Below, piece by piece: positions 40,166-61,500 of a stretch of DNA of 64,000 nucleotides (positions are counted from its first letter, which is position 1; each line of letters starts with the position of its first letter). Under the pieces are notes generated by a model. That model had not been told where the DNA came from, did not search any database, and saw only the letters and a program-made list of their open reading frames with translations. Source of the DNA: Stigmatella ashevillena. Lineage in GTDB: Bacteria > Myxococcota > Myxococcia > Myxococcales > Myxococcaceae. Location: positions 5,388,425 through 5,452,424 of the forward strand of contig NZ_JAQNDM010000002.1 of assembly GCF_028368975.1 (NCBI RefSeq), read 5' to 3'. Made by a program: the position numbers and the translations under genes.

Positions 40166-40268
40166 GCCGACCCCTTCCTCTTCCGTGAGCCGTGGGCCGT
40201 CCTCCTCGCCCCCTCATGGCTCAAAAGCCGTAGCGGAATACCTATTTTTCTGACTATAGAGCTTTTCC

Positions 40269-41456: not shown

Positions 41457-41487
41457 GTCCCTGAAATCGCGGCGCAAAGGCCCCGTG

Positions 41488-41613: not shown

Positions 41614-41652
41614 CCCGGTTGGGTGAACGGTCCACGAGGGCCGGGCGGGCGC

Positions 41653-42831: not shown

Positions 42832-42994
42832 GAGATCGACTCCCAACCAGTCAGGCTACGACTGCCAAGGTGCGGCGTTCAATCCCTGCCGCCCCATCGA
42901 GCGCTTCAACCTTGGGCGGTAGAGCCAGTGTCCCGCCTCGCACCGGAGACGCACCCTCGGCGAAGCCCTGCCGAAACCGGCTCTTACCTTTCTT

Positions 42995-43894: not shown

Positions 43895-44052
43895 GGCTTT
43901 TCTTTCGAGGGACGTTCGCAAACAACGATGAGCCCAGGGGCTGCGTGCCCGCGCCACGGCGCAAGACTGCGCGGCGCGCGGAGGCTGTCCCTAGAGGATC
44001 CGCATGTCAGACGCGGGCGTGCTCTCCGAGAAAGCGGACGTCGCGAGTCAAC

Positions 44053-44637
44053 CTACGGCACTGCGCCCGCGAGACTTTGCTCCCGTGCCGCTTTCCGAAA
44101 AAAACGGGCCGATGTGAGCCACAGCGCGACGAAGAACCCCGTCAGTACCAAGGTGTAGCCCCATCCGGCGATCAGGGCGATCACGGCGACCAACGCCTGA
44201 GCGAGCGCCGTCCCGACCAATGCGCGTGCCATTCCATGGGGCTGGAAGCGCGCCATGATGGCGCCCGTGATCCCGACGGCAAGTACTCCGCCATACATCA
44301 AGTTTGCGGGGTTACCCTCATTCCCGATGATGCCAACGGCAAGGTTCATCCAGACGAGGATGAATGCTGCCGCGAGCGCAACGCCGACGGCGACTCGGTA
44401 CGCGGGGTTGCCCGTCACCCTCGCTGCCAGCTCGTAGGTGCCGCAGGCGACGAACAGCATGGCGCCGAAGACAGCGAAATCGGCCAGGCCCCACGCCACT
44501 TCTTCGGTGAACTGCATCGCCAACAAGGGCACCAGCAAGATGAGCGCTGCGGTGCCCCAGATCACTCTCCGCCAATGGCTCCCGCGCCGTCCGCTACCGG
44601 TTTCCGCGTTTCCCGTCATTGCCTTGTCTCCGTGCAT
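44053..44637 (-). CDS. Small integral membrane protein, unknown function
   Basis: Protein of 194 residues with about five hydrophobic helices (roughly 27-45, 50-68, 80-100, 113-128, 135-170). No conserved motif is recognised. The start is the ATG at 44637; an alternative lies 18 bp downstream. It sits between the esterase and the M20 hydrolase genes on the same strand but with gaps over 100 bp, so cotranscription is uncertain. Confidence 0.8.
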   Translation of the reverse strand: MHGDKAMTGNAETGSGRRGSHWRRVIWGTAALILLVPLLAMQFTEEVAWGLADFAVFGAMLFVACGTYELAARVTGNPAYRVAVGVALAAAFILVWMNLAVGIIGNEGNPANLMYGGVLAVGITGAIMARFQPHGMARALVGTALAQALVAVIALIAGWGYTLVLTGFFVALWLTSARFFRKAAREQSLAGAVP

Positions 44638-44758
44638 GAGTGAGACCGTCCACGACGCAGCGGGAGCTTAGAGTGGAACACCGCTCGGTTGCCATCCTTG
44701 CAAGCGGTCGTCACTCTGGGGCTGCGTCAGCCTCGACACCCTGCGGCCTGGGGTGGCG

Positions 44759-46063
44759 CTACCGGCGACCGACGACGGCCCGCTTACGCCGAGGCTCGGC
44801 CTTCCGCGCGAGGTGCTCCACCGTCTGCTCGACCGTCGCGAGGAACGCGCGCACCGACTTGTCGAGCGCTGGCTCTGGCGTGTCCTCGATGCGGGTGTGC
44901 GAGATGCCCGGTGAGGATTGTGCGAAGACCATCGCGGTCGGCACGATGTCGGCCATCTCCGCCGCGTCGTGGAGCGGACCCGACGGGATCTCCGGCGCAT
45001 GCCCGGTGACGCCCTTGACCGCCTTTCGCACGAAGCCGGTGAGCGTCTCGTCGAAGATGCGCGGGGTGATCTGGAGGATCGGGCTCCACTCGACCTTGAC
45101 CTTGAACTCCTTCGCCGCGGCAAGCGACGCCTTCTTCGTCCCCGCGAGCAGCTTCGCGAGCACGCCCGCGTCGAGCGCGCGCAAGTCGATGGAGATCTCC
45201 GTGCGGCCCGGCACCGCGGTGACGAAGTTCGGCTCGACCTTCACCACGCCGCAGGTCGCGACCACGCGCGTGCGCGGTGTCTTGCCGGAGAGCTTCGTCG
45301 CGAGTTCCTGCGCGGAGAGTGCGAATCGGGCGCCTGCGAGGAACGCGTCCTGGCGGAGGTGCAGCGGCGCAGCGCCGGAGTGCGCGGCCTGCCCGATGAA
45401 CTTCAGCTGGTGGCGCTCGACGCCCATCGTCCCGAGGACCACGCCGACCGGGCGCTTCATCTCCTGCAGCACCGGCCCCTGCTCGATGTGCAACTCGAGG
45501 TAGGCCTCGGCCCTCAGGTCGTCGAAGTACTTCCGCGCGGTCCTCATGCCGTCGAGGGTGATGCCGTTCTCCCTCAGCGCATCGGGGAGCTTCACGCCGG
45601 CGCGGTCCACGAGGTGCGCGAGTTCCTTGTGCGGATCGAGCGAGCCTGCGGACGCGGCGGACCCGGTGAGGCTGCGGCCGAAGCGCGCGCCCTCTTCGTC
45701 GGCCCAATCGACGATGTGGAGGGTGACCGGCGGGCGTTGGCCCTTCGCGGCGTAGACGCGGAGGACCTCGAGGCCCGCGAGCACACCGAGGCAGCCGTCG
45801 AGCCAGCCACCCCCGGGGACCGAGTCGAGGTGGCTGCCGATGACGATGCTCCGCTCGGAGTCTCCGTGGAGCGTGGCCCACAGGTTGCCGGCGCCGTCCT
45901 GGCGCATGGGGAGGGCAAGCTCGTTCTTCAGCTTGCCCTCGAACCACTCGCGCGCCTTGCGCCAGACGGGGCCCCATGCGACGCGCTGAGCGCCGCGCTC
46001 GTCGGAGGTGAGCTTCTCGAGTTCCTTGAGCTCGGCGATCACGCGCTTCGAAGAAGGGTTCAT
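44759..46063 (-). CDS. M20-family amidohydrolase (allantoate/N-carbamoyl amino acid type)
   Basis: Metal-dependent hydrolase of 434 residues of the Zn-dependent M20 group that includes N-carbamoyl-L-amino-acid hydrolase and allantoate amidohydrolase. Metal ligands: GSHLDSVPGGGWLDG (His78, Asp80, Asp89), DEEGARF (Glu123-Glu124), the substrate element ELHIEQGP, and the closing SGPLHDAAEMA His. It should cleave a carbamoyl amide to amino acid, CO2 and ammonia, but the substrate cannot be fixed. Translation may start at 46063 (family start MNPSSKRVIAEL) or 12 bp upstream. No export signal, so cytoplasmic. Confidence 0.9.
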   Translation of the reverse strand: MNPSSKRVIAELKELEKLTSDERGAQRVAWGPVWRKAREWFEGKLKNELALPMRQDGAGNLWATLHGDSERSIVIGSHLDSVPGGGWLDGCLGVLAGLEVLRVYAAKGQRPPVTLHIVDWADEEGARFGRSLTGSAASAGSLDPHKELAHLVDRAGVKLPDALRENGITLDGMRTARKYFDDLRAEAYLELHIEQGPVLQEMKRPVGVVLGTMGVERHQLKFIGQAAHSGAAPLHLRQDAFLAGARFALSAQELATKLSGKTPRTRVVATCGVVKVEPNFVTAVPGRTEISIDLRALDAGVLAKLLAGTKKASLAAAKEFKVKVEWSPILQITPRIFDETLTGFVRKAVKGVTGHAPEIPSGPLHDAAEMADIVPTAMVFAQSSPGISHTRIEDTPEPALDKSVRAFLATVEQTVEHLARKAEPRRKRAVVGRR

Positions 46064-46116
46064 GGCCCTTCTCATAGCGCAGGGGGCGGGAGTGGCGTTA
46101 GCCGTGTTGGGTCTTG

Positions 46117-47280
46117 CTACGGTCGCTTGATCCGGAACGAAGAGGTGAGATCGTTGAAGTTATACTGCGTCAGGTTCGGGACATCACACCCACACCCCAA
46201 ACCACTTCCGGCGAAGTTGATGTCGTTGAACAACGTGTACTCGTAGCCAGGGCTCACCTTGACCGAGGAGATGCGGTCATTCCACTGCGTCCCGACCCAG
46301 GCGCTGTCGCTGGTGGCGCAAAAGCTCTCACCCTTGTAGTCGCTGTCCGCGTAGAAGCAGACTCCGGTGGTGGTGCCACCGCCATAGATGGCGCGAATGG
46401 CTCCGAGGTCTCCCGGGGTAAAGGTGTTGACGCGGTCGTTGCCGACCTGCTCGGGTGGAAAGCCATTCTTGGGAACGTAATCCCAACGGCCATTCACGAA
46501 GTAATTGCGGTAGTGCATCATCGACTCGAAGTCGTACGAGCCAATGGGCGTGCCCGCCGACCCCCAGTCAATGGCGTTCTGGCTGCCACCCGCGTTGACG
46601 GTGACCCACGAATCACGGTCTTGACGTACTTGCTCGTGCGCCAGCCCGACCGCGTGGCCGAGCTCGTGCCGAGCGGGGTTCACACCGCAGCCCGCGCCCA
46701 GCGACAAATCCTGTCGTCCTCCAATCTTGCCGACGTAACTCCAACATCCGTCGCTGGTGACGATCCGTACGTAATCGGCCTGGTTGGTCCGGGGCACCCA
46801 GCGGATGGACGTCTTTGCGTCGTAGTCGGCCTTGGCGCCCGCGAAGGCCGAGCGCGTCTCCGCCGAAGCTGCGGGGTCGATCTCGTACGGAATCACCCCT
46901 CCTGGCCACTTCTGACCGGTGGCGTTGACGATGCCCGAGCCCATGGCTCCAACTTGCGTGTCGCCATCCAGCCGCAAGATCACCTGCTTGTCCGCGCTGA
47001 TCACCTGCGTGCCAGAGACTTCACCGATCACTTGATCGCCGACAAAGGCGTAGTTGCCCTTGAGCACCGCCGTGACGGGGGTGTCCAGTCCGGCCAGCCG
47101 CACCTGAAAGGTCTGACCTTTCGGGTACTGTGAGTGATACACGGCGTCGTTTTCCAACCCGCTCGCCTCATCCGGTGCGAGCGCTTGAAGTTGCTGGGTT
47201 GCCACCTCTTGCTCTCCACAGGCAGTGCTCAGCAAACCCAAAGCAAGAAAAGCCGCGTGACGCATTCCACGGTTGAACAT
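46117..47280 (-). CDS. Astacin-type metalloprotease lipoprotein with crystallin-like domain
   Basis: Protein of 387 residues. The lipobox LLSTAC (Cys21) follows a hydrophobic core, so it should be a surface lipoprotein. The protease domain (about 120-300) has the astacin signature HELGHAVGLAHE (Zn ligands His205, His209, His215; catalytic Glu206) and the Met-turn SMMHY (253-257), the M12A family. A propeptide-like region precedes it. The last 80 residues (from CFYADSDYKGESFC) show the beta/gamma-crystallin pattern with WNDRISSVKV, a calcium-binding fold also used in myxobacterial protein S. AAGGAG precedes the ATG at 47280. Confidence 0.93.
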   Translation of the reverse strand: MFNRGMRHAAFLALGLLSTACGEQEVATQQLQALAPDEASGLENDAVYHSQYPKGQTFQVRLAGLDTPVTAVLKGNYAFVGDQVIGEVSGTQVISADKQVILRLDGDTQVGAMGSGIVNATGQKWPGGVIPYEIDPAASAETRSAFAGAKADYDAKTSIRWVPRTNQADYVRIVTSDGCWSYVGKIGGRQDLSLGAGCGVNPARHELGHAVGLAHEQVRQDRDSWVTVNAGGSQNAIDWGSAGTPIGSYDFESMMHYRNYFVNGRWDYVPKNGFPPEQVGNDRVNTFTPGDLGAIRAIYGGGTTTGVCFYADSDYKGESFCATSDSAWVGTQWNDRISSVKVSPGYEYTLFNDINFAGSGLGCGCDVPNLTQYNFNDLTSSFRIKRP

Positions 47281-47514
47281 GTCGTCTCCTTCACGTTGTG
47301 CAGCGCGCCGCCTGAAGTGCAGGCCACGCACCTTGTCGGATCCCATTGCCACGATGGGATCGGCAAATTGCCATAAACCAGCAAGAGCAGCAAGAACGGC
47401 TTACTCAGCCGGAGCTGATATCATTGTTTTGCCGCTTGTGATGTAAAATTATACTTCGGGCTGAGTGTGCTGGGTGAAGACGTGGGCCTACCGGAGCAGT
47501 CTCTGAACAGGCCT

Positions 47515-48015
47515 CTACCGTCCGCGCTTGCCAGGGGCCAGGATGCCGTATCGGGCGGCCTCGCGCCGAGCGTGCTCGATGAGGTCCAGCATTTGCTGAC
47601 GAGAGCGCCGATGCTTGGGCAACCGCCGCACCCGGCGCTCCACGTCTGCCAGCAGGGCAAAAGCGTCTTCTGCCTGCTCCGGGAAGTACGGCAACGACTG
47701 GACGTAGAGGGTCGAGACGTGAAAGCGATCCCAGAGCCTCGGGAAGCCCAGCCGTCGAATCCTGCGCAGCCACGGGCCAAAGTCCTTCCACGGGCGCGCA
47801 TGGTCGAACGCCGCTTGCACCGCATTCAACGCCGTCAGACGCCTCAGGTGCAGGCGTTCAGCGGGAGTTCGTGCCTCCCGTACAAACTGCCGCTCGAGAT
47901 CCTTGAGCGCAGCGACGGCGACTTCAAAAGGCATTTCACCTTCAGCCAACCCTAACGAGAGCCACTGGCGCTGCTCTGCCACCGTGTTCCACCACTCCCA
48001 GCGCAAGCGGGCCAT
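47515..48015 (-). CDS. Immunity-type partner protein, minus-strand copy
   Basis: Protein of 166 residues and paralogue of the + strand protein at 49019-49519, about two-thirds identical by eye (RTPAERLHLRRLTALNAVQA, RPWKDFGPWLRRIRRLGFP, VRRLPKHRRSRQQMLD). No signal peptide; basic with Trp-rich start (ARLRWEWWNTVAE). Both genes share the upstream sequence GGAGGCGAC at the same distance from the start, which supports the ATG at 48015. The preceding sequence is a remnant of the toxin C-terminus. It is inferred to be the immunity protein of a lost toxin; function not established. Confidence 0.78.
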   Translation of the reverse strand: MARLRWEWWNTVAEQRQWLSLGLAEGEMPFEVAVAALKDLERQFVREARTPAERLHLRRLTALNAVQAAFDHARPWKDFGPWLRRIRRLGFPRLWDRFHVSTLYVQSLPYFPEQAEDAFALLADVERRVRRLPKHRRSRQQMLDLIEHARREAARYGILAPGKRGR

Positions 48016-48110
48016 GACGAGTCGCCTCCCAGGCACTCAAAGTCGTTGACTTCCGCAGGCCAGGAGCCAATGCCAAGGCAAGTGTCGTAGCAGGGTAAGC
48101 CTCCGCTCCG
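48016..48110 (-). pseudogene. Remnant of lipoprotein toxin C-terminus
   Basis: Translation directly upstream of the minus-strand partner gene reads CYDTCLGIGSWPAEVN and then DFECLGGD, the same end as the intact toxin at 48483-49016 (CYEVCRGTGFWPEKVN, AFECLGGD). The toxin's TAG is replaced by TCG, so no stop occurs at the usual place, and everything before this is unrecognisable. The alignment shows that the minus-strand locus was once a full toxin-partner pair. Confidence 0.8.
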
Positions 48111-48307
48111 ACCCAGGGTGTCGTAGGGCGAAGAGCATGGCAGGAAGAGAGGGTGCGCGACGAAGAATCGACGAGCCTATCGCTGCTGAGCCTGTTGCTG
48201 GGCCCACGACTCTGGGAGGAACTCCGCGATGCGAGAGGCCGCTTGGCACAACCCTTCAAGAGCCGCAAGAACGGCTTATTCAGTCGTAAGTGTGCTTGGC
48301 GAACCCA

Positions 48308-48425
48308 GAGCCTCGGGAAGCCCAGCCGCCAAATCCGGGGCCAAAGCCCTTCCACAGGCGCCCCTAGGGGAACGCCGATTGTACAAAATGCAGCGCCGTC
48401 AGACGCTTCAGGTGCAGGCACTCGG
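48308..48425 (-). pseudogene. Fragment of a third partner gene
   Basis: On the minus strand CLHLKRLTAL and then VEGLWPRIWRLGFPRLW are read in adjacent frames, matching the partner proteins (ERLHLRRLTALNAVQAAF and PWKDFGPWLRRIRRLGFPRLW). Frameshifts and a deletion separate the pieces, and no start remains. A third copy of the partner gene therefore stood here. Confidence 0.75.
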
Positions 48426-48482
48426 CTGCTGGTGGACGGGTACGGTACGATCCGGGTTACTGAGCTAGAAGCGGGGGAGCAC

Positions 48483-49016
48483 ATGAACCAGGACGGAGAC
48501 GCGCGAGGCTCTGCTGCCCGCACGCTCTTGCTGTGCACCGGGCTGTGGGGCATGGCGGGTTGTAGCGCCACCCAGGCAGCGCACTCAGGCACAGGCGGAT
48601 CACACATGGCAGGCGCCATCCCAGAGGACGTGCATGCTCCCGCGAAAAGTGGTGAGGCCATCGCCCAGGCCGTCGAGTGCAACCAAACCGATTCGTCGCT
48701 CTCTTGCTGCCTCAAGCGGAACCCGGGGCAGTACGAGCGCTGCGGGGCGGTCGCTCCCAAGCGGGCGCCCAAACGAGCCCCTCAAGACGAAAAAGGGCCG
48801 GTGAATCCCCCTCCGCTCCCGCCACCCGATGAGAGACGGGAGCGGGAGCGGAGATGCCGCGACTATTACGATCAGTGCATTGCGCGCGGCGGCGAATACG
48901 AGAAGCGCGGGCAGTTTGGCCGGACCATCTGTCAGTCCTGTTACGAGGTTTGTCGAGGAACCGGTTTTTGGCCTGAGAAGGTCAACGAAGCGTTTGAATG
49001 TCTCGGAGGCGACTAG
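48483..49016 (+). CDS. SitA-like small lipoprotein toxin (Cys-rich C-terminus)
   Basis: Protein of 177 residues. The N-terminus ends in the lipobox LWGMAGC, so it is a lipoprotein. A central SSLSCCLKRNPGQYERCG segment resembles other SitA-type toxin lipoproteins as I remember them (possibly SitA6), followed by a Pro-rich linker. The C-terminal 60 residues form a Cys-rich domain, CRDYYDQCIARGGEYEKRG, TICQSCYEVCRGTGFWPEKV and FECLGGD. It is predicted to act on recipient cells after outer-membrane exchange, activity unknown. The ATG has GGGGGAG 6 bp upstream; the partner gene begins two bases after its stop. Confidence 0.75.
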   Translation: MNQDGDARGSAARTLLLCTGLWGMAGCSATQAAHSGTGGSHMAGAIPEDVHAPAKSGEAIAQAVECNQTDSSLSCCLKRNPGQYERCGAVAPKRAPKRAPQDEKGPVNPPPLPPPDERRERERRCRDYYDQCIARGGEYEKRGQFGRTICQSCYEVCRGTGFWPEKVNEAFECLGGD

Positions 49017-49018
49017 CC

Positions 49019-49519
49019 GTGGCCCGCATCCGTTGGGCGTGGTGGAGCACGGTAGCAGAGGCTCGACAGTGGCTGACCTATGGGATGATTCACGCGGAGG
49101 TGCCTTTTGATGCCTATGTGGGCGCGCTCAAGGATCTCGAGCGTGCGTTTGCACGGGAGGCACGAACCCCCGCCGAACGCCTGCACCTGAAGCGCCTTAC
49201 GGCAGAGGACGCTTTGCAAGCGGCGTTCGATCAAAATCGTCCGTGGAAGGACTTTGGCCCATGGCTGCGCAGGCTCCAGCGGCTGGGCTTTCCGAACCTC
49301 TGGAGTCGCTTCATGATCTCCATCATCTACGTCCAGTCCTTGCCCAACTTCCGCGGACACGCGAAAGACGCCTTCGCCCTGTTGGCAGACACGGAGCACC
49401 GAGTGCGGCGGTTGCCCAAGCACAGGCACTCCCGTCAGCAAATGCTCGACGGCATCGAGCATGCCCTGCGAGAGGCCGCCCGATACGGCATCGAGCCCCC
49501 CAGTCAGCGCGGCCGGTAG
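49019..49519 (+). CDS. Immunity-type partner protein of the Cys-rich lipoprotein toxin
   Basis: Protein of 166 residues, start GTG at 49019 (GGAGGCGAC lies 6-8 bp upstream, overlapping the end of the toxin gene). It is the paralogue of the protein at 47515-48015 and shares TPAERLHLKRLT, RPWKDFGPWLRRLQRLGFP and VRRLPKHRHSRQQMLD. No signal peptide. Being immediately downstream of a toxin, with translational coupling through a two-base gap, makes it the likely immunity protein. It is not a family I can name with confidence. Confidence 0.82.
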   Translation: MARIRWAWWSTVAEARQWLTYGMIHAEVPFDAYVGALKDLERAFAREARTPAERLHLKRLTAEDALQAAFDQNRPWKDFGPWLRRLQRLGFPNLWSRFMISIIYVQSLPNFRGHAKDAFALLADTEHRVRRLPKHRHSRQQMLDGIEHALREAARYGIEPPSQRGR

Positions 49520-49668
49520 ACGCCCGCTGACTGCTGGGTACCCACTGCATGAGCCGGACACACGCCGCATGCTGGCAGGGTGAACGAGACGCTTTCAGCG
49601 CAACGATTGCCGCTCTTCGAGTGGGGGCGAGAGAAGCTCCGGCGTGCTGTCCAGGGTGAGGGAATGCC

Positions 49669-52623
49669 TCAGGGAGAAGGCTCGGGTTTCGGCGTCTGAG
49701 CCTCGGAGGGGAGGATGGCGCGCAGGGGCTCATCGCTGCCCAGGGCGATGAAGGGGGCCCAGGCATGGGGATGGGGATGAGAGGCGCGCAGCGAGCGCAT
49801 GGCCTCGCGCAGGGCGGAGGCACGGCCCTGCCCGGCCAAGAGGTTGAGGTAGTAGAGGTCCATGAGCAGGCGCGTGGAATCGTCGCTCACCTTCCAGAGG
49901 CTCACGAGCACGGTCTCGGCTCCCGCGGCCACAAAGGCGTGGCGCAGGCCGTAGACGCCCTGGCCCAGGAGGACTTGGCCCCGGCCGGTGTCGCAGGCCG
50001 ACAGGACGACCAGCTGGGTGCCCCACAGGTTGAGCCCGGCCAGTTCCAGCGCCGTGACCAGGGTGGCCTCGGGACTGGACGCAGCGGATTCGGAGGCAGC
50101 GGGGGGAGCACCCGCCAGAACGAGGCCGGAGTTGAGCAGCGGCTCCTGCTGGGGCGGGGGAGCACCGCCCAGCGAGTCAATGGCAGCCAGGCCCCGGGAG
50201 CCCGGTGCGGAGGGGGCGTTGTCCAGAAAGAATCCATGGGTGGCCAGGTGGAGAATCCCAGGGGTGGACAAGCTCAACAGCCGCTGCTTGGAGGCCCCGG
50301 AGCCCAGGAACACTTGAGCCTGGGGCACCAGGCGCTGAATGCCTTGGGCCTCCAGGCGCGTGCCCGGCAGGGGCACCCAGGCGCTTCTGAGCAACTCCTG
50401 GGGCGGCGTGGTGAAGAAACGATCCAGGGCGTTGGAGGGCGGGGCAGCAATGGGAGCAGGCAACGCATCGGAAAAAACGGAGGCAGTCAAAGCGGTGAAG
50501 CTTGGGTCAGCGAGGACGACGACGGAGGAGGGAGGGGCGATGTCCTGGGGCTCTCGCAGCAGTTCGCGGCCCGAGGTGCGATAGGTGAAGTCGAAGGAGT
50601 CCAGGAGGAAGCCCTGGCCGTCGTGGAGGGCGTCGAAAGGGACGAGGCCCAATTGGCCATCGGGAGACAGGACGAGGCGGCGAGTGGTGCCCAACAGCGG
50701 CAACAGGGGCTGGAAGGCTCGCCGATAGAGTGCCTGAGTGGCGGATTGCAACGAGGCTTCGTGCTCGGCCAGGGCGTCATGCAGGCGCGAAGCAGCGCGA
50801 TCGATGGGAGGAGCGGGGCCCAGGTCCACGGCGCGGGTGGAGGCATCGGGGAAGAGCACCAGCGCCAGGTAGCGCATCTGGCTGGCTTCCTTCGCCCGCA
50901 GCGTCTCGGGTTTGTACACGAGAGGGTGGTCTTGGTAGGCGATGAACTCGACCAGCGCGCCGTCCTTGGGAAGAGAGGAGGCAACGCTGTCGACAATGCC
51001 TGCCAGCGAAGGCAGAGCGGCCCGTGAGCGCAAGGGCGCGGAGCGCTTGGCCAGATTCGCTTCGAGCGCGTCACCCTCCTCCGCCAGGGAGTGGAGGCGC
51101 TGTTGGTAGGATTCCGGGGTGAGCGCGCCAGGGCCCGCGAAGGAAAGGGAGGCGCGTTGAGTGCGCAGGCTCCGAAGCCGCTCGAAGGTGTCGCGGTCCT
51201 CGGGGCCCAGGCTGCGGTAGAGAGTACGGGAGATGCTCGCTGTCTCCGCGACGAAGCGGCCCTTGAGCAGAAGCACGGCGCTGAGGGCCAGGTGTCGCAC
51301 TCGGGCGTTTTCTGGGTGTGCGCGCAGCAGGGCATAAAGCCTCTGTTCATCGGCCCTCAGATGGGAGAGGAAGCTGGCAAGGCGGGTCTCGGAGAAATCG
51401 AGCGCTTCGTGACGCAGGCGCTGCTCGGAAATGGCGAAGGCTTGAGTGAAGAGGGGCAGCGCCTCGGAGAGGCGACGCTGGGCCAGCCAGAGTTGGCCGA
51501 GGTCATTGAGCGATTCAACGACCTCGGGGTGGTTGTTACCGAGAGCTATCTCCCGAATGACAAGCGCGCGATGATAAAGGGGCTCAGCCCGGCCGTATAA
51601 GCCTCGCGCCCGGTAGAGGTTGGCGAGATCATGAAGCGAGTTGGCGACGTCGGGGTGGCTCTTGCCGAGGGCAGTTTCCTGGATGGCGAGGGCGCGCCGG
51701 TAGAAGGGTTCGGCACGGCCATACATCCCCTGTTTCCAGTAAACGTTGGCCAGGTTGTTGAGCGACTCGGCGACGCTGGGGTGGCTCTTGCCGAGAGTGG
51801 CCTCCCGAACAGCCAGCCCGCGCTGGTGGAGGGATTCGGCACGGCCGTACAACCCCTGGTCTGAATAAAGATTCGCAAGGTGGGTGAGCGCCAAGGCGAC
51901 GGCGGGGTGACTCTTGCCAAGGGCGGTCTCCCAGATGGCCAGCGCACGCTGGTAGAGGGGCTCGGCACGGCCGTACAATCCTTGGTCTGAATAGAGATTC
52001 GCAAGGTTTTGGAGCACGTTGGCGAAGTTGGAATGGCTCTCGCCGAGAGTGGCCTCGCAGATGGCCAGCGCGCGCTGGTAGAGAGGCTCAGCACGTCCGT
52101 ACAATCCCTGTTCCTGGTAAAGGCTAGCGAGGTTGTTGAGCGAGCCAACAACGTCGGGATGATTCTTGCCGAGGGCGGCCTCCTGAATGGCAAGCGCTCG
52201 CTGATAAAGAGGCTCGGCACGGTCGTACACTCCCTGGTCCAAATAGAGGAGGGCGAGGCTGTTGAGAGATTGAGCGACATCGGGATGGTTCTTGCCGAGG
52301 GCGGCCTCTCGAATGGCAAGCGCGCGCTGGTGGAGAGGCTCTGCCTGGGTCAGGTCCCCTTGCCGACGATGAAGCTCACCCATCAGGTTCAGGCAGGTGG
52401 CAACGTCTGGATGCGTGCTTCCGCGCACGGCCTCTCTGAGTGCGAGCGCATGCTCAGCCCGTACAAGGGCTTCGGAATACTTGCCTGCATCATTGAGTTT
52501 CGTTGCCTCGTCAAAATCCGCCTGCGCCTCCATCAGCCGCGCATCGGGCGACCCCGCGTTGGCCCTCCCTTCCACGGCACACCAAAGAAAGACTGCCATC
52601 ATCCAGCCGAAGCCCTGACGCAT
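49669..52623 (-). CDS. Exported TPR-CHAT domain protein
   Basis: Protein of 984 residues. A signal peptide (1-24, MMAVFLWCAVEGRANA) is followed by eight or nine TPR repeats of 42 residues (about 55-400, LGKSHPDVANSLHDLANLY type) and a helical spacer. Residues about 670-975 are a CHAT domain, a caspase/separase-like peptidase fold, with catalytic His796 (LHLATHGFF) and Cys877 (LSACDTGRG). CHAT proteins act in programmed cell death, defence and regulated proteolysis; the TPRs should bind a partner or substrate. The start ATG has GGGAGG upstream. It lies 62 bp after the kinase gene at 52686, so it is probably in the same operon. Confidence 0.92.
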   Translation of the reverse strand: MRQGFGWMMAVFLWCAVEGRANAGSPDARLMEAQADFDEATKLNDAGKYSEALVRAEHALALREAVRGSTHPDVATCLNLMGELHRRQGDLTQAEPLHQRALAIREAALGKNHPDVAQSLNSLALLYLDQGVYDRAEPLYQRALAIQEAALGKNHPDVVGSLNNLASLYQEQGLYGRAEPLYQRALAICEATLGESHSNFANVLQNLANLYSDQGLYGRAEPLYQRALAIWETALGKSHPAVALALTHLANLYSDQGLYGRAESLHQRGLAVREATLGKSHPSVAESLNNLANVYWKQGMYGRAEPFYRRALAIQETALGKSHPDVANSLHDLANLYRARGLYGRAEPLYHRALVIREIALGNNHPEVVESLNDLGQLWLAQRRLSEALPLFTQAFAISEQRLRHEALDFSETRLASFLSHLRADEQRLYALLRAHPENARVRHLALSAVLLLKGRFVAETASISRTLYRSLGPEDRDTFERLRSLRTQRASLSFAGPGALTPESYQQRLHSLAEEGDALEANLAKRSAPLRSRAALPSLAGIVDSVASSLPKDGALVEFIAYQDHPLVYKPETLRAKEASQMRYLALVLFPDASTRAVDLGPAPPIDRAASRLHDALAEHEASLQSATQALYRRAFQPLLPLLGTTRRLVLSPDGQLGLVPFDALHDGQGFLLDSFDFTYRTSGRELLREPQDIAPPSSVVVLADPSFTALTASVFSDALPAPIAAPPSNALDRFFTTPPQELLRSAWVPLPGTRLEAQGIQRLVPQAQVFLGSGASKQRLLSLSTPGILHLATHGFFLDNAPSAPGSRGLAAIDSLGGAPPPQQEPLLNSGLVLAGAPPAASESAASSPEATLVTALELAGLNLWGTQLVVLSACDTGRGQVLLGQGVYGLRHAFVAAGAETVLVSLWKVSDDSTRLLMDLYYLNLLAGQGRASALREAMRSLRASHPHPHAWAPFIALGSDEPLRAILPSEAQTPKPEPSP
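51590..52345 (-). repeat. 126-bp tandem repeats coding TPRs
   Basis: Six or so adjacent 126-bp units (42 codons each) with recurring blocks such as AGATGGCCAGCGCGCG and CGGCACGGCCGTACA. Neighbouring units are more alike than distant ones, which suggests recent tandem duplication within the CHAT gene. Confidence 0.8.
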
Positions 52624-52685
52624 CTTTTCTCCCTCCCTTGCCTCGGGTTCAACGCGAGGCCAATGAGGACCGGCTGAGCAAAGCT

Positions 52686-54047
52686 CTAATGTGAATCCGA
52701 GGTGCCGGGCCTCGGAGGCATTACCACGGGAAAGTAACAGGCACCTTTCCAGTCGTAAGCGCCCTCTCCGCAAGGCGGTGAGGTTTGAAGGACTTCGATC
52801 CAGCAGCCTCCCCGAATGCTGACCTGCCAACCAGGGCACGGCGGACGGCGTTGGCCCGGGAGAGGCTCTTTGAGCATGTCGAGGCTCAGCCCGCTGGGCT
52901 TGGACCCTGGCGCCGCACTGGACACCGGAAACGCCTCCACTGCTGCGTCCGCCACTCCCCCCGTCCCACCATCCGTCATCGCGCTGGGGGAAGCCTGGAG
53001 CCTTCCCACGTTCACATGCCCAGCCACCAGGAGGAGAAGCCCAGCGGCCACAGGGAGGAGCGCCACGGGCCCAACACTCTCGCGGCGAGGCACTGAGACT
53101 GGTGGACTCGTGACTTCTGTGGACACGCGCGAAGAGTCCGGGCTCGTGGGCTCATCGGGTTCAGCCTCGGCGGTCTCCGCCATGGCCTCCATCACTGCAG
53201 CCAACTCGCCCGCGCTGCCTCGGTCCTGGGGCTTGTGGGAGAGCATGCGGAGAATGAGGGCCTCCAACGAGGGCGCCAGCGGCTTCACCTGACTCGGAGG
53301 CTTCAGCACCTCCTGGGGGTCGCCTCCATCATCTCCTATAAAGGAGGGGCTCGTCGCCAGGGGGGGATAGATTCCCGTGCACAGGCGGTAGGCCGTCACT
53401 CCCAGCGCATACACGTCGTCCGCAGGCGTGGCGCGGTAGGGAGCGTGGGCCCCATGGCAGGGGTTCCCATAGAACCGCAGCGCTTGGGGACTGCGATAGA
53501 CCTTGGTGCCGGGGGCGAGAAGCCCCTCGGTGAGCGGGGCCGCCCCCTCCCAAGTGCCGCACCCAAAGTCCATGAGGTAAGCCCGGCCTTCGGGGCTCAC
53601 CAGGACATTCTCTCCCTTGACGTCCCGGTGAAGCCCTCCGCGAGCGTGGGTGGCCTCCAGCGCCCGCGCCACCTGGGCCAGCAGCCTCAGCGTCCGGCGG
53701 AACGTGAGCGGATGCTCCTTCGCACAATCGTACAGGTGGACGCCTTCCACCCATTGCATCACCACATAGGGGTGCGCTTCCCCGCTGGAGCCTCCTGCCC
53801 AAGTCCCCCGTCCCAAGAGGCGAGGCACACCGGGATGCTGGATCCGGGCCAGCAGACCCGCCTCGCGCTCGAAGCGTAAATCGTTCGGGTAGCGCGCCAC
53901 CTTGAGGGCCACCGGCTGGGCAGAAGTCTGCCCCCTCCGGTGTGCCCGGTAGACCGCGCCATACGTGCCGTAGCCGGCGCGTCCGTCCACCTGCCATGGG
54001 CCCAACAAGGTCCCAGGCGGCAGCGCCTCGGGCAACAGCGCGTCCAT
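52686..54047 (-). CDS. Membrane Ser/Thr protein kinase
   Basis: Hanks-type kinase of 453 residues. LLGPWQVDGRAGYGTYGAVY is the glycine loop region, Lys49 (ALKV), Glu60/62 (FEREAGLL), catalytic HRDVKGEN (Asp142), DFG (160-162) and the typical later element ADDVYALGVTAY. It ends its kinase domain near 290, followed by an acidic Ser/Thr linker, one membrane helix (326-346) and a Cys-rich periplasmic tail of about 100 residues (CPGWQVSIRGGCWIEV, CGEGAYDWKGACYFP). The gene precedes the exported CHAT protein by 62 bp on the same strand. The kinase probably senses envelope signals with its Cys-rich tail. Confidence 0.92.
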   Translation of the reverse strand: MDALLPEALPPGTLLGPWQVDGRAGYGTYGAVYRAHRRGQTSAQPVALKVARYPNDLRFEREAGLLARIQHPGVPRLLGRGTWAGGSSGEAHPYVVMQWVEGVHLYDCAKEHPLTFRRTLRLLAQVARALEATHARGGLHRDVKGENVLVSPEGRAYLMDFGCGTWEGAAPLTEGLLAPGTKVYRSPQALRFYGNPCHGAHAPYRATPADDVYALGVTAYRLCTGIYPPLATSPSFIGDDGGDPQEVLKPPSQVKPLAPSLEALILRMLSHKPQDRGSAGELAAVMEAMAETAEAEPDEPTSPDSSRVSTEVTSPPVSVPRRESVGPVALLPVAAGLLLLVAGHVNVGRLQASPSAMTDGGTGGVADAAVEAFPVSSAAPGSKPSGLSLDMLKEPLPGQRRPPCPGWQVSIRGGCWIEVLQTSPPCGEGAYDWKGACYFPVVMPPRPGTSDSH

Positions 54048-54149
54048 GGCGCACCTCAGGAAAGGCGGGGGCCTGCTTCCTGTCCATCCTACCCCCTGGG
54101 TCTCTCCTTGTCAGCGCTCCTCTTCAGGTAGGCCTGCGCGGTGCCCCGC

Positions 54150-57100
54150 CTACGGGCTCACGGGCACGGAAACGAGCGGCTGTTGCTGGCCGGTGTCAGC
54201 TCTCGGCACGACCGGCGTGCTCAGCACCACCGAGGTGTGCACCTGACCCTCGGCCTCCCACCGCAACGGAATGACCTCGGGCGGGCTCGCGGTGGAGGCG
54301 AAGCCAAGAAAGCGGGCCCGAGCCCCACCGGGTCCCGAGAAGCCCGCCGCACAGTGGGCTTTTCCGGTGAACGGATCCGCCTGATACAGGCGCGCGGTGT
54401 GCATGGCCGCCGCCCAGCCGCCCTGGGCCGACACGCCATGGGCTTCCAGCGCGTTCCAGAGCACACACCCATTCACCACGGCCGCGGAGGTGCTGGTGCG
54501 CTCGAAGGCGCGGGCGTACGTGAGGTACCAGCCCTTCCCCGAGGGCGAGGCCTCCACCTCATCGGGCGTCACCGCTCCCGAGGCGTCGAACTGACCCACA
54601 TCCTGGAGATCCGCGTCTGTCAGCATCTGCCGTTCGAAGGCATCCGCCTCTTGGCTGGTGTTGAACGTGCGGGACGGAGCGCCGCCGTAGCTCGAGAGGC
54701 CGTAGAAGCGCTCGGGGTAGGGGGGCACGCCGCGGACGTAGCGGAACGACGGTTTGAAGGCATTCCACGGCTCACACCTCCAAGCGTTCGACGACCCCGT
54801 GCACCGATACTCCATCGTGAAGGGACTCGACCCTCCCCCGCAGGCCGCATCGAATCCGTGACCCGAGGTGAACCGCACCTGGGCACTCTGGCACGCGGGC
54901 CCCGGCGTCCCTGGCGTGTGCCCTCCCTGCGCGTAAGCCCAGGCGCCATAGCGGGCCTCGGAGGACGCCGCGAGCTGCCCCCCCCGGTACACCTCCAGTG
55001 CATTGCTCACGCTGCATCCCTGCTCCGCACAAGCGCGCATGTTCCCCGAATGGCAGACCGAGCTCTCCTCGGAGAGGTTCTGCCGGTCGCCCGTCCCTAC
55101 GAAAGTCCTCAGCTCCCCCGTCTCTTGCCTCACCCAGTTCGAGGCCGTGGAGGCGAACGGCCCTCTCAGCCGCTCGGGGCTTCCCCCCTGGCTGGCCACG
55201 CGGAACGCTCGGGCGGCATGCCAGTTGTCCACCCGCTGCGTGGTGGCGTTCCAGTGGCCCGGGTTCCAGAAGCGCGCGACCCAGAGCTGCCCCCCGTAGT
55301 CGCCCACCGTCGCCGTGTCGAACAGCTCGTCCCGCTCCAGGGTTCCTTTGTAGAGGTTGTCCACGTCGGCCAGCGCCACCCCCGCGGTGACGGGGTAAAG
55401 CAGTTGATCCGAGCGCCGCTGGCCATCCCCGAGGAAGAAGCTCCACACCGTATGGCCCGTGGCCAGATCCACCAGGGCCATGCCCCGCCCCCGCATCTGG
55501 TGGGGATCATACCCGCCATTGAGCGCCACCACCCACCGCTCCCGGGTGGAGACTTCGTCGAAGGCGAGGGACTTCCCGGCACGCACCCCCGGCATTCCCC
55601 GCAGGGCCCCGAGCGCGTCATCCGCCGGGGGCGTCAGGGCCACCGCGCCCAGGGGCGGCGCCTGGGGAGAGAAGTGGCTGACGCTCTGGCCCACCTGGAG
55701 CGCCAGCGCATCGCACGGCTGCGGCCACATCCACAGGAACGTGCCCGGGGTGTTGGGAAGCCGCGGGGTGCTGGGCAGGTCCGTCGCCAGCAAGTCCGTC
55801 AGGTCCAGCGCGAAGTGGTGCACCCCGCCCCGGCCCGAGCCCACCACCGCCACCGTGCGGTACTCCATCCACTGCTTGCGGCCATCCCGCACCGCGCCGG
55901 CGCCCACCCCGTCCATCCACACCTCGCGCACCATGGCGGTGCCATCCACGAAGTAGGCGTGCTTGCCCACATTGGGGAGCATCTTGGGCAACATGTCCGG
56001 CGGCACGACCGCCCACAGCTCCTGGCCCGTGCCCGCGTCGTAGATTCCCAGCTCCGTCTCCGGCTCCGCGGACAGGAAGCGGCCGTTGTGGAAGGCGTGC
56101 AACATGCCTCCGCTGGAGCCCATCAACAGGAGCTGATCCCGCGTACCTGCCTCAAAGCGGTACTTGTCATAGGCATCCGCGCGGGCGTTGCCTGGAATCA
56201 GGTAGCCCTCCTGCAACGGCGTGGCGCCCGAGTAGAGCGCCCGCGTGCACTGCGGCGACGTGTCACACCGGGCCTTGGACGCAGGCGGCTCCACGGCGAT
56301 GGGCGAGGCGTGGGCACTGCCGTGCAACAGGAAGGGCCGGTCCAACCCGCGCTGAGACGTCTCTGGATTCATGGCGTCCGCGCCGCGATACCAGCGGATG
56401 ACGAGCCGGGCACACTCGAGCGGCGTGTTGGCGGGAAGGAACCCGTACAGCCGCTGGCACTCGGGAGCGAACGTGGTCGGGTGAATCCCCAGAGACTCCA
56501 TCAACACACCGGCGTTGGCCTCGGTGAACTCCACGGGCGTGTCCTGGTGGTCGATCTTCCCGTCCCCATTGCCATCCACGAGGGTGAAGATGCGCCGCTC
56601 CTTCCAGCGTGCCGTGGGCACCCCCTCCGGCTTGAGCACCTGGCCGGCCTCCCAGTACGGCTTGGCGGGCACCGTGGCGTTGGAGCGCTTGACGAAGGTG
56701 CCTTCGGCCGTCTCCACCACGGCCTGGTCTTCCGCATCCATCAGATGCAAGTCGTCGCAATCCCCATCGGCGTTGAGGTCCCCGGGCTGTGGGAAGGGCG
56801 CGGCCGGCTCACATCCGAGCTCCCGCTCGGACATGTGCCGGAACCGGTAGAGAAACCCTTGGCGTGGCTGGGTGTCCTGGGCGTCGAACGTGCGAAGGCG
56901 GGGCACAGCGGCCGCGGCGAGGCCGCCTCCTCGGGGAAGAGCCAGGGCCGGGGCGGCAAGCGCCGTGGTACGCGCCGGGATCTCCTGGGGCGCGAGGAAG
57001 TGCAGAAGCGCGTTCTTGAGGCTGTCTGCATCATCCACGCTGTAATAGAGGCCCCCGCCCACGTCCACGGTGTTCTTCAACAGGTTGCTGTCGAACCCGT

Positions 57101-58403
57101 AGCCAATCGCATGCACCCGAATGCTCTGCTGCCCGCGGGTGTCGAGGTCCCCGACCACGGGGGGCGTGTTGTGCTGAAGATCCGAAGTGGCCAGCAGCTT
57201 CGCCACATCGTCGAGCAGGTAATTGCCGGCATTGGCGCCCTGGTCCGGGCACGGCCGCGAGGCGGGGCAATTCACAGGGCCCCCATTTCGCGTCCGGATC
57301 CTGTTCATCATGAGGCTGGAGAGGCTGTCGCTCACAGGCTCGCCATCGGCGATCAGGATGACCTCGGTGGCCTGGTGTCCCCAGCAGATCGACCGGAGCT
57401 CCGAGGAAAGCGCTTCGTTCGCGAAGTCGCCCGGATAGCTGTAATTGGCGGGATTGCTTCCAAAGCCAAACACGTCCCGGTACACGCTGGGGCCCGAGGT
57501 GAAGTAATAGCCCGTGTTGAGCAGGGCGCGTGCCAGGGAATTCCCGCTCTGGAAGGACAAGGCGTTGATGTGGTAAATGAGCTCCCAACGACTGTCGTCG
57601 AAGGCGCTCGGATCCAAGAGGCCCGCCTGGCACCCGGGCCGCAGCCTCATCCGGTGCGAGGAGGACGTCCCGTTGAGGACACTCAGTCCCACGCGCGCCC
57701 CGCGAAGATCCTTGATGACGCGCTTGAGCACGGCCCGGGCCGTCACGTACTTGGGGGGATTGAAGTTGAGAAAGCGGCCCCAGAGGATGAAATCGGGGTT
57801 GGTCTGTCCGGAGATGCCCGAGTTGAACGCCTTGAAGTACCCGCGCGTGCTCAGACACTGCAAGCACTTGACGTACTGGGCGGCGTTGACCGTGTTCCAC
57901 TGAGGAACCACGCTCTGGCAGGCCTGCTCCCGGGTGTTCCACTGCGGGGGAGGACTGTTCTGGGTTCCCCAGAACCCCATCGCATAATATCTGTTGTCTC
58001 GAAACAGATCGGGAAACCCCGTGTCCGGGCCAATCCCAGTGCCGTTATCCGGAAGGGGGTACTGGACACCGGGCTGCCACCCCCGGGTGTCCGCGAACGC
58101 GTTCAGCTTGGGATTCTCACATCCGTTGACAGTCGCGTCGTAGAATGCCTGGTAATTGTTTGCATCGACCTGGGGCAGATCCGCCATGGAGGGCGACACA
58201 TCCAGGATGAAGTGAACGTTGGGAGGCGTCGCCCATCGGCGGAAGAAGCGCTCATCTCCCGGGGGCTCGACGTTGAGCAGCACATCCTCGATGAGGGACG
58301 TGGTGAGCTGACAGCAAGCGGGACTGTTCCCGGACGACCCCAACTGCGCGGACGCCGCTCCCACGGCGCCCAACAACATCCAACCCAGAACCCAACGCTT
58401 CAC
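54150..58403 (-). CDS. PilY1-like protein with vWA domain (copy 1)
   Basis: Protein of 1,417 residues from a GTG start at 58403 (GGGGGT 6 bp upstream; the paralogue starts with ATG at the same residue). Signal peptide 1-19 (LLGAVGAASA). NVHFILDVSPSMAD (Asp68-x-Ser70-x-Ser72) is an intact MIDAS metal site of a von Willebrand A domain. The C-terminal half is the PilY1 beta-propeller: ELWAVVPPDMLPKM, ALNGGYDPHQMRGRGMALVD, and the calcium loop GNGDGKIDHQD. PilY1 proteins sit at type IV pilus tips and serve adhesion, pilus extension and mechanosensing. A near-duplicate follows upstream. Confidence 0.93.
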   Translation of the reverse strand: MKRWVLGWMLLGAVGAASAQLGSSGNSPACCQLTTSLIEDVLLNVEPPGDERFFRRWATPPNVHFILDVSPSMADLPQVDANNYQAFYDATVNGCENPKLNAFADTRGWQPGVQYPLPDNGTGIGPDTGFPDLFRDNRYYAMGFWGTQNSPPPQWNTREQACQSVVPQWNTVNAAQYVKCLQCLSTRGYFKAFNSGISGQTNPDFILWGRFLNFNPPKYVTARAVLKRVIKDLRGARVGLSVLNGTSSSHRMRLRPGCQAGLLDPSAFDDSRWELIYHINALSFQSGNSLARALLNTGYYFTSGPSVYRDVFGFGSNPANYSYPGDFANEALSSELRSICWGHQATEVILIADGEPVSDSLSSLMMNRIRTRNGGPVNCPASRPCPDQGANAGNYLLDDVAKLLATSDLQHNTPPVVGDLDTRGQQSIRVHAIGYGFDSNLLKNTVDVGGGLYYSVDDADSLKNALLHFLAPQEIPARTTALAAPALALPRGGGLAAAAVPRLRTFDAQDTQPRQGFLYRFRHMSERELGCEPAAPFPQPGDLNADGDCDDLHLMDAEDQAVVETAEGTFVKRSNATVPAKPYWEAGQVLKPEGVPTARWKERRIFTLVDGNGDGKIDHQDTPVEFTEANAGVLMESLGIHPTTFAPECQRLYGFLPANTPLECARLVIRWYRGADAMNPETSQRGLDRPFLLHGSAHASPIAVEPPASKARCDTSPQCTRALYSGATPLQEGYLIPGNARADAYDKYRFEAGTRDQLLLMGSSGGMLHAFHNGRFLSAEPETELGIYDAGTGQELWAVVPPDMLPKMLPNVGKHAYFVDGTAMVREVWMDGVGAGAVRDGRKQWMEYRTVAVVGSGRGGVHHFALDLTDLLATDLPSTPRLPNTPGTFLWMWPQPCDALALQVGQSVSHFSPQAPPLGAVALTPPADDALGALRGMPGVRAGKSLAFDEVSTRERWVVALNGGYDPHQMRGRGMALVDLATGHTVWSFFLGDGQRRSDQLLYPVTAGVALADVDNLYKGTLERDELFDTATVGDYGGQLWVARFWNPGHWNATTQRVDNWHAARAFRVASQGGSPERLRGPFASTASNWVRQETGELRTFVGTGDRQNLSEESSVCHSGNMRACAEQGCSVSNALEVYRGGQLAASSEARYGAWAYAQGGHTPGTPGPACQSAQVRFTSGHGFDAACGGGSSPFTMEYRCTGSSNAWRCEPWNAFKPSFRYVRGVPPYPERFYGLSSYGGAPSRTFNTSQEADAFERQMLTDADLQDVGQFDASGAVTPDEVEASPSGKGWYLTYARAFERTSTSAAVVNGCVLWNALEAHGVSAQGGWAAAMHTARLYQADPFTGKAHCAAGFSGPGGARARFLGFASTASPPEVIPLRWEAEGQVHTSVVLSTPVVPRADTGQQQPLVSVPVSP

Positions 58404-58568
58404 GGCGGACCCCCAGCAAGACAGGCTCCGCCGGATAACGAAGTTTTCAACTTCCAACAAGCGCCCCCCTTCCTGGCGGAGCGCTCCACGATTCTCAGAA
58501 AATGCTCACGCGCGACGGGGTGACCGAGGAGACCTGAGCATGTCTGGGTTTGCCCGCAGTCTCTGGAA

Positions 58569-61500
58569 CTACGGGCTTACCGGGAATGAGACGAGGGGCG
58601 GCTGGGCACTGACCCCCACGGTCCTGTTCGGCGTGCTCAGCAGGACCGAGGTGTGGACCTGGGTGCCCAACAACAGGCGTTGAGAAACCGTCTCGGGGAG
58701 GCTCACGGGGGTCGAGAACCCCCGGAAGCGGGCGCGCGTCCCCGTGGCTCCCGAGGAGAAACCCGCCGCGCAGTGGGCCTTCCCGGTGACGGCGTCCGCT
58801 TGATAGAGCCGTGAGACGTAGCTCGCCTCCTCTGGGGTTCCCTCCGAAGGGGCCTCCCGGGCTTCGAGCGAGCTCCAAAGCACACACCCCTCCAGCGCGG
58901 ACGCACCCGTGCTCGTCCGCTGGAAGCCCGAGGCGTACTGGAGATACCAGCCTGCTCCCAGCGGGGGCGCTTCCACCTCTCCCGGTGAGACCCCACCCGA
59001 AGCGTCGAACTGTCCCACGTCCAGCAAGTCCCAGTCCGTCATCATCTGGCTGTCGAAGACCGCTGCCTCCGCGCTGGTGTTGAACGTACGGGACGGATGG
59101 CCGCCGTAGCTCCACAGGCCATAGAAGCGCTCCGGGGACAGCGGCTGGCTTTGGGCATACCGGAACGGCAGCCGGGTGTCTGTTTGAACGCGGCAGCTCC
59201 AGGTGCTCGGGTTCCCATCACACTTGGAGTCGAACGTCTCATAGAGATCGCTCGCGCATTGGCTCGTGGCGTAATGGTCCGAAGAGAGCCGCACCCGGGC
59301 ACTCGCACACGCAGGGCCCGAGGCGCCCGTGGCCTGTCCCCCCAGCCAGTACGCGAAGGAGTGATAGTTGGCCGTGGAGGTCGCCGCGGTCACGTTGCCC
59401 CGGTACACCGTCAGGGTGTTCTCCACGCCGCACCCCTGCTCCGCGCACGCACGCGGGTTGCCGGGCCTGCACACCGAGGCCTCCTCGGAGAGGTTCTGCC
59501 GGTCACCTGTTCCCAGGAACGTCCGCAGGAAACCTGCCTCGGGCTGCGTCACATTGGCCGCCATGGAAGCGAAGGGCCCTCGCAGGGCTTCGGGGTTTCC
59601 CGTCCGGTTCGCCAGATTGGCCACCCGGAACGAGCGCGCCGCATGCCAGTTGCTCACCCGCTGCGTGGAAGCATCCCACTCTCCTGGCCTCCAGAAGCGC
59701 AGCGTCCACAACTGGCCGCCATAGTCCCCCACCGTCGCCGTGTCGAAGAGCTGATCCGCCTCGAGGGCCGTGCCGTAGGAGCTGCCCACGTCTGCCAGCG
59801 CGACGCCCGCCGTCACCGGATAGCGCAGGTATTCGGAGCGGCCCTGCCCATCTCCCAGGAAGAAGCTCCACACCGAATAGCCCGTGGCCAGATCCACCAG
59901 GGCCAGGCCCCGGCCGCGCAACTGGTAGGTGTCGTATCCGCCATTGAGCGCCACCACCCATCGCTCGCGGGCAGGGGTGCCATCGATGAGCCAAGGCACC
60001 AAGGCATTCGAGCCCCAGGTTCCGCCCAGAATCCGCAGGGCGTCATCCGCCTCGGGCGTCAGCGCCACCGGACCGATGGGCGGGGTTTGCGGCGAGAAGT
60101 GGCTGATGCTCTGGCCCACCTGGAGCGCCAAGCCATCGCAGGGCTGGGGCCACATCCACAGGAACGAGCCCGGGGTGTTGGGGACACGCGGACTGCTCGG
60201 CAGATTCACCGCCAACAGGTCCGTCAGGTCCAGCGCGAAGTGGTGCACCCCGCCGCGACCCGTCCCCACCACCGCCACCGTCCGGAACTCCGACCACTGC
60301 TTCATCCCGTCCTTCTGGCTATCGGCTCCCACCCCATCCATCCACACTTCGCGCACCATGGGGGTGCCATCCACGAAGTAGCCGTGCTTGCCCAGGAGGG
60401 GGCGCATCTTCGGCAGCAGGTCTGGAGGCACGAACGCCCACAACTCCTGGCCCGTCCCCGCGTCGTACTGACCCAGCCCCGTGACAGGGTCCGTGGACAC
60501 GCGCCGCCCGTTGTGGAAGGCGTGCAGCATGCCTCCATTGGAGCCCACCAGGATGACCCGATCCCGCCCTCCGGCCTCGTGACGGTACTTCTCGTAGGCA
60601 TCCGCGTGGGCGTTGTCCGGCACGGCGTAGGAGTCCTGCAGGGGCGTGGCCCCCGTGAAGAGCGTACGCGTGCACTGCGGTGAGGTGTCACACAAGGACT
60701 TCGGCAGCGGCGGCTCTACGCTGACGGGCGTGGAGTGGAAGATGTCATGCAGCAGGAACGGCCGGTCGTAGCCACGCAGGGCCGGGTCTGGATTGAGGAC
60801 GTCCGCGCCGCGATACCACCGGATGACCAGCTTCGCGCAATCCGCGGGCGTCAGGCTGGCGAAACCCAGTTGAACGCGCAAATTTTCGCACTCGGCGGGG
60901 TTTTGGCTGATGCCCAGCGAGTCCATGAGCAGGCTTGCGTTCGCCTCGGTGAATTCCACCGGCGTGTCCCGATGGTCGATCTTCCCATCCGTGTTGCCGT
61001 CCACAATGGTGAAGATCCGCCGGTTCATCCATTGCGTCGTCGGGGCGGCAGAGGGCTTGAGCACCTGGCCTGCCTCCCAGAACGGCCGGGCCAGCGCCCC
61101 GCTGCCCTGCTTGAAGAACTCCCCGGCGGCGCCCTCGCCTATCAGATCACCGTCCATGTCCAGCAGGTGGGTGTCGTCGCAGTCCCCATCGCCGTTGAGG
61201 TCCCCGAACCAGGGACTCGCCGGGTCACACCCCACGCTCTTCTCCGCGGTGAGCTGAAACCGGTAGAGGAAGCCCCGCCTTGGGGATGTGTTCTGGATCT
61301 CAGACTGGAAGCGTGGCACCGCGGCCGCGCCCTGTCCATTCATCAGCAACGTGTCCAGGGAGGGCGCGGCCAGGGCCGTCCTGCGCATCCTGCCCCCCGC
61401 CTTGCCCTTCGCATGGGCAATGGCCTCTTGAAGCGCCTGTTCGAGGGCGGCCACGCCGTTGACCGGGAAGTAGAGGCCCCCTCCTACCGCCGCAGCATTC

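Follow-up and report, generated by a model that had tools for sequence, protein, structure and literature searches.

We analysed a 64,000-nucleotide stretch of Stigmatella ashevillena DNA (the window), in which a gene for a membrane Ser/Thr kinase stands a short distance upstream of a gene for a protein that combines tetratricopeptide repeats (TPRs) with a CHAT domain. Our best reading of these sequences, to which we give a probability of roughly 0.55, is that the two genes belong to separate dispersed families and that the TPR-CHAT protein is an exported, ligand-gated, caspase-like enzyme with a diversifying recognition array. Both genes are confirmed as sequence features, with scores far beyond chance, as had been claimed in a sequence-only reading of the window; the further suggestion of that reading, that signals sensed by the kinase tail might control the CHAT protein, is not supported by comparison with related genomes. 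The pair is not supported as a system; the TPR-CHAT family, probably exported, is worth following, and if our reading is true, it would extend caspase-like recognition to the cell envelope or to the outside of the cell.

The TPR-CHAT family and its N-terminus

The CHAT domain of the window's protein matches PF12770 at 237.6 bits (E = 2.6e-70, curated cut-off 24), and His796 and Cys877, picked out in the sequence-only reading as catalytic residues, are invariant, together with their surroundings, in 24/24 aligned paralogues. These were drawn from a set of 28 TPR-CHAT loci: L055 and L155 were unplaced by the start pattern and were omitted from the N-terminus, alignment, entropy and first selection analyses, L056 and L145 were left out of the alignment for length, and CHAT genes below 50% identity were also omitted. 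The earlier count of eight or nine TPRs is borne out by the Pfam profiles TPR_12 and TPR_10, which match eight stretches each, and by the nine helix pairs counted from the helix list of a predicted model; across the family, repeat number ranges from ~5 to 26 by an approximate pattern count. The S. ashevillena genome (10.95 Mb) has 19 CHAT places, 12 of which are TPR-CHATs of the window's subfamily sharing 58-100% identity in the C-terminal half.

Read as its longest open frame, the CHAT gene would begin further upstream, within the kinase gene, and encode 1056 amino acids. The ATG at 52623 agrees with the start in relatives, an ATG being present there in 21 of the 23 loci with a locatable motif (28 examined). 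A hydrophobic 10-residue N-terminal stretch (mean hydropathy at least 2.04) was found in all 26 TPR-CHATs compared, and 17 of these, the window's protein among them, pass a strict signal-peptide heuristic, used here rather than a dedicated program, which none of 61 kinase N-termini and none of 136 internal Met pass. The suggestion that the protein is exported finds support at the level of sequence, the signal-peptide-like N-terminus being common to the paralogues, and we regard the protein as probably exported across the inner membrane.

The closest solved relatives of the repeat array are the TPR domains of kinesin light chains (PDB 7ai4, 3nf1 and others; sequence profile E down to 3e-65), and a PDB sequence search with the CHAT part gave no match at E <= 0.1. 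Kinesin light chains are eukaryotic cargo adaptors and are not known to carry a CHAT domain. TPRs preceding a CHAT domain that bears a His/Cys dyad are also described for Csx29, an autoinhibited protease of the type III-E Craspase which is switched by target RNA binding, this bringing His585 and Cys627 from ~7 to ~3 angstrom (PMC9729208). The family described here differs from Csx29 in being probably exported, in having kinesin-light-chain-type repeats in variable number, and in that no CRISPR partner was recognised among the scanned neighbours: PADLOC models gave no match in the 10 surrounding proteins scanned (the genome was not searched for Cas7-11 as such), and the protein itself was matched by a generic TPR model only. 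Csx29 and Craspase are cytoplasmic. Csx29, the well-studied TPR-CHAT, is a ligand-switched enzyme that acts in an RNA-guided complex. Conflict systems with CHAT, STAND NTPases and diversified sensors, in which diversity comes from retroelements, are described in PMC10907252; the TPR-CHATs resemble the systems described there in joining a CHAT proteolytic domain to diversified recognition parts, and differ in that the diversity lies in the TPR groove positions of paralogues (no search for retroelements was made). A literature search found nothing on a CHAT domain with Myxococcus, which is weak evidence as most subscription papers lay outside the search.

Fast-changing positions in the repeat groove

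Among 176 repeat units of 42 residues taken from 25 proteins, entropy was highest at positions 2, 12, 13 and 9 (3.1-3.3 bits; next 2.57). Positions 2, 5, 9, 12, 13, 33 and 34, which include these four, are described as the variable, concave ligand-contact face of TPRs (PMC1261162). As TPRs vary at concave positions generally, the point here is the speed of change between related copies. A first selection test used overlapping pairs and positions chosen from the same data, and was repeated with published positions and 8 disjoint pairs (16 proteins, 46 units). In the repeat, non-synonymous change (pN) was 0.401 at groove positions 2, 5, 9, 12 and 13 versus 0.105 in the rest of the repeat, a ratio of 3.8 (3.2-4.5), and groove non-synonymous change was 1.20 (1.03-1.39) times the synonymous change (pS) outside the groove in these units; within the groove itself, synonymous change was 0.378. 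With overlapping pairs, pN/pS was 0.26 for the CHAT domain, and pN was 0.505 at ligand positions versus 0.301 at other variable repeat positions. Groove pN/pS varied by pair in the first version of the test, from 2.71 (L152/L064) and 2.52 (L144/L143) to 0.65 (L060/L151) and 0 (L141/L140). The pairs mix orthologues and paralogues: L143/L144, L152/L064, L060/L151 and L058/L142 have related flanks, the window's protein and L140 come from different sites, L056/L057 both belong to a single genome as separate copies, and for L149/L145 and L153/L150 same-site status was not shown. The groove data do not separate selection, relaxed constraint and repeat shuffling; by sequence, groove change is unusually fast, as if the targets recognised keep changing.

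From these features we infer how the protein might work. It would cross the inner membrane by means of its signal-peptide-like N-terminus, and its kinesin-light-chain-type TPR superhelix would bind a peptide or protein through the fast-changing groove. Ligand binding may then move the His/Cys dyad into active geometry, by analogy with Csx29 in Craspase, and the protease, so activated, would cut a partner that sits in the envelope or lies outside the cell. A bolder and quite speculative extension is that some myxobacterial genera possess a secreted repertoire of about a dozen exported, caspase-like TPR-CHATs per genome, with a constant protease and with diversifying groove residues and repeat numbers, acting beyond the cytoplasm as receptors that recognise kin, rivals, prey or phage surfaces, some of them encoded near membrane kinases that signal inward.

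The kinase family and its proximity to TPR-CHATs

The kinase matches Pkinase (PF00069) at 88.4 bits against a cut-off of 31.7, and its K49, D142 and D160 are invariant in the 54 members aligned out of a set of 61, from which kinase matches not reaching both ends were left out. The Cys-rich tail noted earlier was likewise recovered, its four Cys being invariant in the same 54 members. It follows the one segment of strong hydrophobicity (residues 325-343), whose mean hydropathy is 2.23, and is modelled with good confidence, from about residue 391, as two beta hairpins. Most of the kinase domain is also well modelled. PADLOC defence-kinase models (PD-T4-6 / MAD6), which have no stated cut-offs, gave matches of up to 152 bits, and the match to NCBIfam MAD6 (132 bits) is below its cut-off of 460. 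The genome contains 64 matches to the family at E <= 1e-60, the window's included, most of them aligned nearly full length; the kinase loci of this genome that were examined have largely different neighbours as judged by a simple gene caller, which missed several TPR-CHATs when used for neighbourhoods. One sister genome has 60 members and two others have 28 and 35. Expansions of eukaryotic-like Ser/Thr kinases are described for myxobacteria, amounting to 99 kinases in M. xanthus and to 317 in S. cellulosum (PMC2887360); here it is one subfamily with a four-Cys tail that reaches ~60 copies in one genome. Three frames of this genome (L078:4174-4919, L080:3917-4108 and L071:3712-3915), some of them near kinase copies, have the four-Cys tail without a recognisable kinase motif, and are either tail-only proteins or broken copies.

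Upstream of the kinase copies, a strict promoter pattern is present in 18/31 close copies (shuffled mean 0.04) and 4/30 distant copies. A dyad, ACCY-N3-RGGTA, overlaps the second promoter hexamer and is found upstream of 28/31 close and 7/30 distant copies (shuffled mean 0.08). Its paired bases (19 C/A, 15 C/G, 3 T/A and 2 T/G) have no strong co-variation, so that taking it for the site of a shared regulator is a guess.

The sequence-only reading proposed to check the two-gene order in other myxobacteria, and it proved not to be conserved in relatives. The closest TPR-CHATs (84% amino acid identity) are in two sister species, G001 and G003 of the 7 genomes of the genus, where they are placed elsewhere without the kinase; the matching DNA (87%) takes in the CHAT gene plus 11 bp upstream of it but leaves out the kinase, and the 19.9 kb around each of these genes have no other match to positions 38001-64000 of the window. 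On the upstream side of the kinase, the window matches G002 up to 54135, ~88 bp before the kinase start, and other genes follow there. No TPR-CHAT locus examined in other genomes has a tail-kinase directly upstream on the same strand, and no kinase was found within the 1.5 kb fetched at the four loci of other genera whose match begins at about residue 1 (L203-L206). The two families also differ in distribution within the bacterial family. TPR-CHATs at a best E <= 1e-150 were found in 21/58 genomes and 6/26 genera (14 candidates scored per genome), and the kinase at E <= 1e-80 in 10/58 genomes and 3/26 genera (up to 29 candidates scored per genome; up to 150 for the kinase counts within the genus). 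Four of the six TPR-CHAT genera have no such kinase among the candidates scored. In one of them, g8, none was found at E <= 1e-80 among 29 candidates scored in each of 6 genomes, nor at 1e-60 among 150 scored in G013, and in genus g23 kinases occur singly, with no close TPR-CHAT in the same genus. The kinase-free closest TPR-CHATs and the differing distributions, as far as candidates were scored, led us to reject a conserved operon. As the kinase domain precedes the membrane segment and is presumably cytoplasmic, and the CHAT protein is predicted to be exported, their predicted placement on opposite sides of the membrane argues against direct phosphorylation; together with the mixed orientations given below, this leaves the proposed control of the CHAT protein by the kinase unsupported by the sequences.

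Several results weigh against our reading of two separate families and an exported, ligand-gated enzyme, and they bear on different rivals. The main rival is a loose link between kinase and TPR-CHAT, a functional pair in which the kinase tail would sense or bind the exported protein or its product and signal inward, which would explain why the two recur side by side and which we think doubtful. In four genomes (G000-G003), 8/38 TPR-CHATs have a tail-kinase no more than 1.2 kb away versus 0.44 expected under uniform placement, using hand-transcribed positions and counting fragments and orthologous sites separately; G001:C19 and G003:C12 represent a single site found in both species, and G001:C24 with G003:C21 may be a second such case, leaving perhaps six independent cases. 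The excess is clear and speaks against plain chance as the cause of adjacency. Two kinase/TPR-CHAT neighbourhoods are each common to two species (L064/L152 and L143/L144), and the 62-bp gap in the window has no terminator-like or promoter-like site that we could find, a further point for a pair in its lack of a terminator. Counted in favour of separate families, 1/12 TPR-CHATs of the window's own genome are within 1.2 kb and 4/12 within 5 kb of such a kinase. An earlier rotation test, in which overlaps were permitted and which the uniform-placement count replaces at short range, gave 4/11 within 5 kb on the large contig of this genome versus a mean of 0.95 (23/2000 rotations reach it), and 1/11 versus 0.90 in G002. 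The pair is opposed by its four arrangements (same strand with the kinase first in the window, same strand with CHAT first in G001:C2, convergent in G003:C17, C21/C24 and C19/C12, divergent in G002), by the kinase-free closest relatives, by g8, where no such kinase was found among the candidates scored, and by the 30/38 TPR-CHATs without a kinase within 1.2 kb. It is also opposed by a third, unrelated dispersed family, of 173-amino-acid proteins, which served as a hot-spot control and is itself enriched near kinases, with 3/22 members within 1.2 kb (0.26 expected) and 8/22 within 5 kb (1.04 expected). Kinases moreover cluster together (25/187 within 5 kb versus 9.0 expected), and with the excess near the third family this is read as shared regions of gene turnover. 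The control is a weak one, chosen since it lies in the window: two of the three closer cases may be one site in two species, and the eight include the two copies of the window. Of the 38 TPR-CHATs, just one, that of the window, lies near a member of the third family (expected numbers 0.05 within 1.2 kb and 0.21 within 5 kb), and this lack of clear enrichment weakens the hot-spot reading and favours a pair. Under the reading of two separate families, the kinase would work on its own, its domain facing the cytoplasm and its small four-Cys tail the periplasm, and the genes would adjoin because both families gather in the same gene-turnover regions; transcription from the kinase promoter may nevertheless run on into the CHAT gene. 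That two genes adjoin in genomes of this kind says little about their function, since dispersed families can have neighbourhoods in common.

The other rivals concern the TPR-CHAT protein itself. It could be an ordinary secreted scaffold or pseudo-protease with a groove that varies because constraint is relaxed and repeats are shuffled, an alternative we hold to be unlikely. The wide range of repeat numbers suggests recombination, the pooled groove pN/pS of 1.06 puts groove pN near the synonymous rate rather than far above it and fits relaxed constraint or repeat shuffling too, and across 20 codons the groove is unchanged in the closest pair (L140/L141). Invariance of the dyad and its surroundings and the low pN/pS of the CHAT domain speak against this alternative, and the variable sites are ligand positions that change faster than the other variable positions of the repeat. 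Two further points count against our reading: 9/26 paralogues fail the strict signal-peptide heuristic, and the model is not to be trusted over its CHAT part, with a predicted local distance difference test score (pLDDT) of 22-35 by blocks over residues 681-910. It is very improbable that the protein is instead an intracellular anti-phage effector like Csx29, with a hydrophobic N-terminus that is not a signal peptide. Such an effector would match the domain order and the association of CHAT with defence and cell death mentioned in PMC9729208, and is opposed by the hydrophobic N-terminus, whose start position is fixed among relatives, and by the PADLOC results given above.

Coordinates and neighbouring genes

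Table 1. Features of the two-gene locus and its surroundings (window positions; protein parts in residues)
Feature	Position	Strand	Remarks
TPR-CHAT gene	49669..52623	minus	984 amino acids from ATG; probably exported; Pfam, paralogue alignment, predicted model
TPR-CHAT protein parts			signal peptide ~1-21/23; nine TPR helix pairs ~28-407; helical linker; CHAT 628-963 with His796 and Cys877
Gap between kinase and TPR-CHAT genes	52624..52685	minus	62 bp
Membrane Ser/Thr kinase gene	52686..54047	minus	453 amino acids; one of ~60 dispersed copies in own genome
Kinase parts			kinase domain 20-282; hydrophobic segment ~325-343; tail Cys 404, 415, 426, 437
Sigma-70-like promoter of kinase	54086..54114	minus	CTGACA, 17 bp, TAGGAT; similar sites at many close copies
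Unnamed-family gene	47515..48036	minus	173 amino acids; one of two inverted paralogues; third dispersed family (hot-spot control)
Unnamed-family gene, second copy	48998..49519	plus	173 amino acids; ~150 bp from TPR-CHAT gene

In sister genomes, the counterparts of the genes at 40100-49668 of the window are scattered over many sites, and the stretch therefore looks like a mosaic. The inverted 173-amino-acid pair within it flanks a small gene, placed by eye within 48153-49016, for a Cys-rich, lipoprotein-like product; the 173-amino-acid family has no Pfam or NCBIfam match, and the pair with the Cys-rich gene might, at a guess, form a toxin/immunity-type module. On the other side, 54150-58460 and 58569-62855 encode tandem paralogues of 1436 and 1428 amino acids, exported-looking and without a Pfam match at 0.001, which may be PilY1-like; G002 apparently has an additional copy at the same place.

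At related stretches of DNA in two other species of the genus, a gene for a TPR-CHAT of this family lies downstream, on the same strand, of a gene for a kinase-nSTAND1-FGE-sulfatase fusion, directly in G006 (L147:3522-7493, 1323 amino acids) and with one gene between in G005 (L146:7976-12007, 1343 amino acids), and a small exported-looking protein is also encoded near both. This neighbour of TPR-CHAT hints at a conflict-system setting. Positions 46117-47352 of the window encode a protease of the Astacin (M12A) type that ends in a peptidase-inhibitor I36 / crystallin-like domain.

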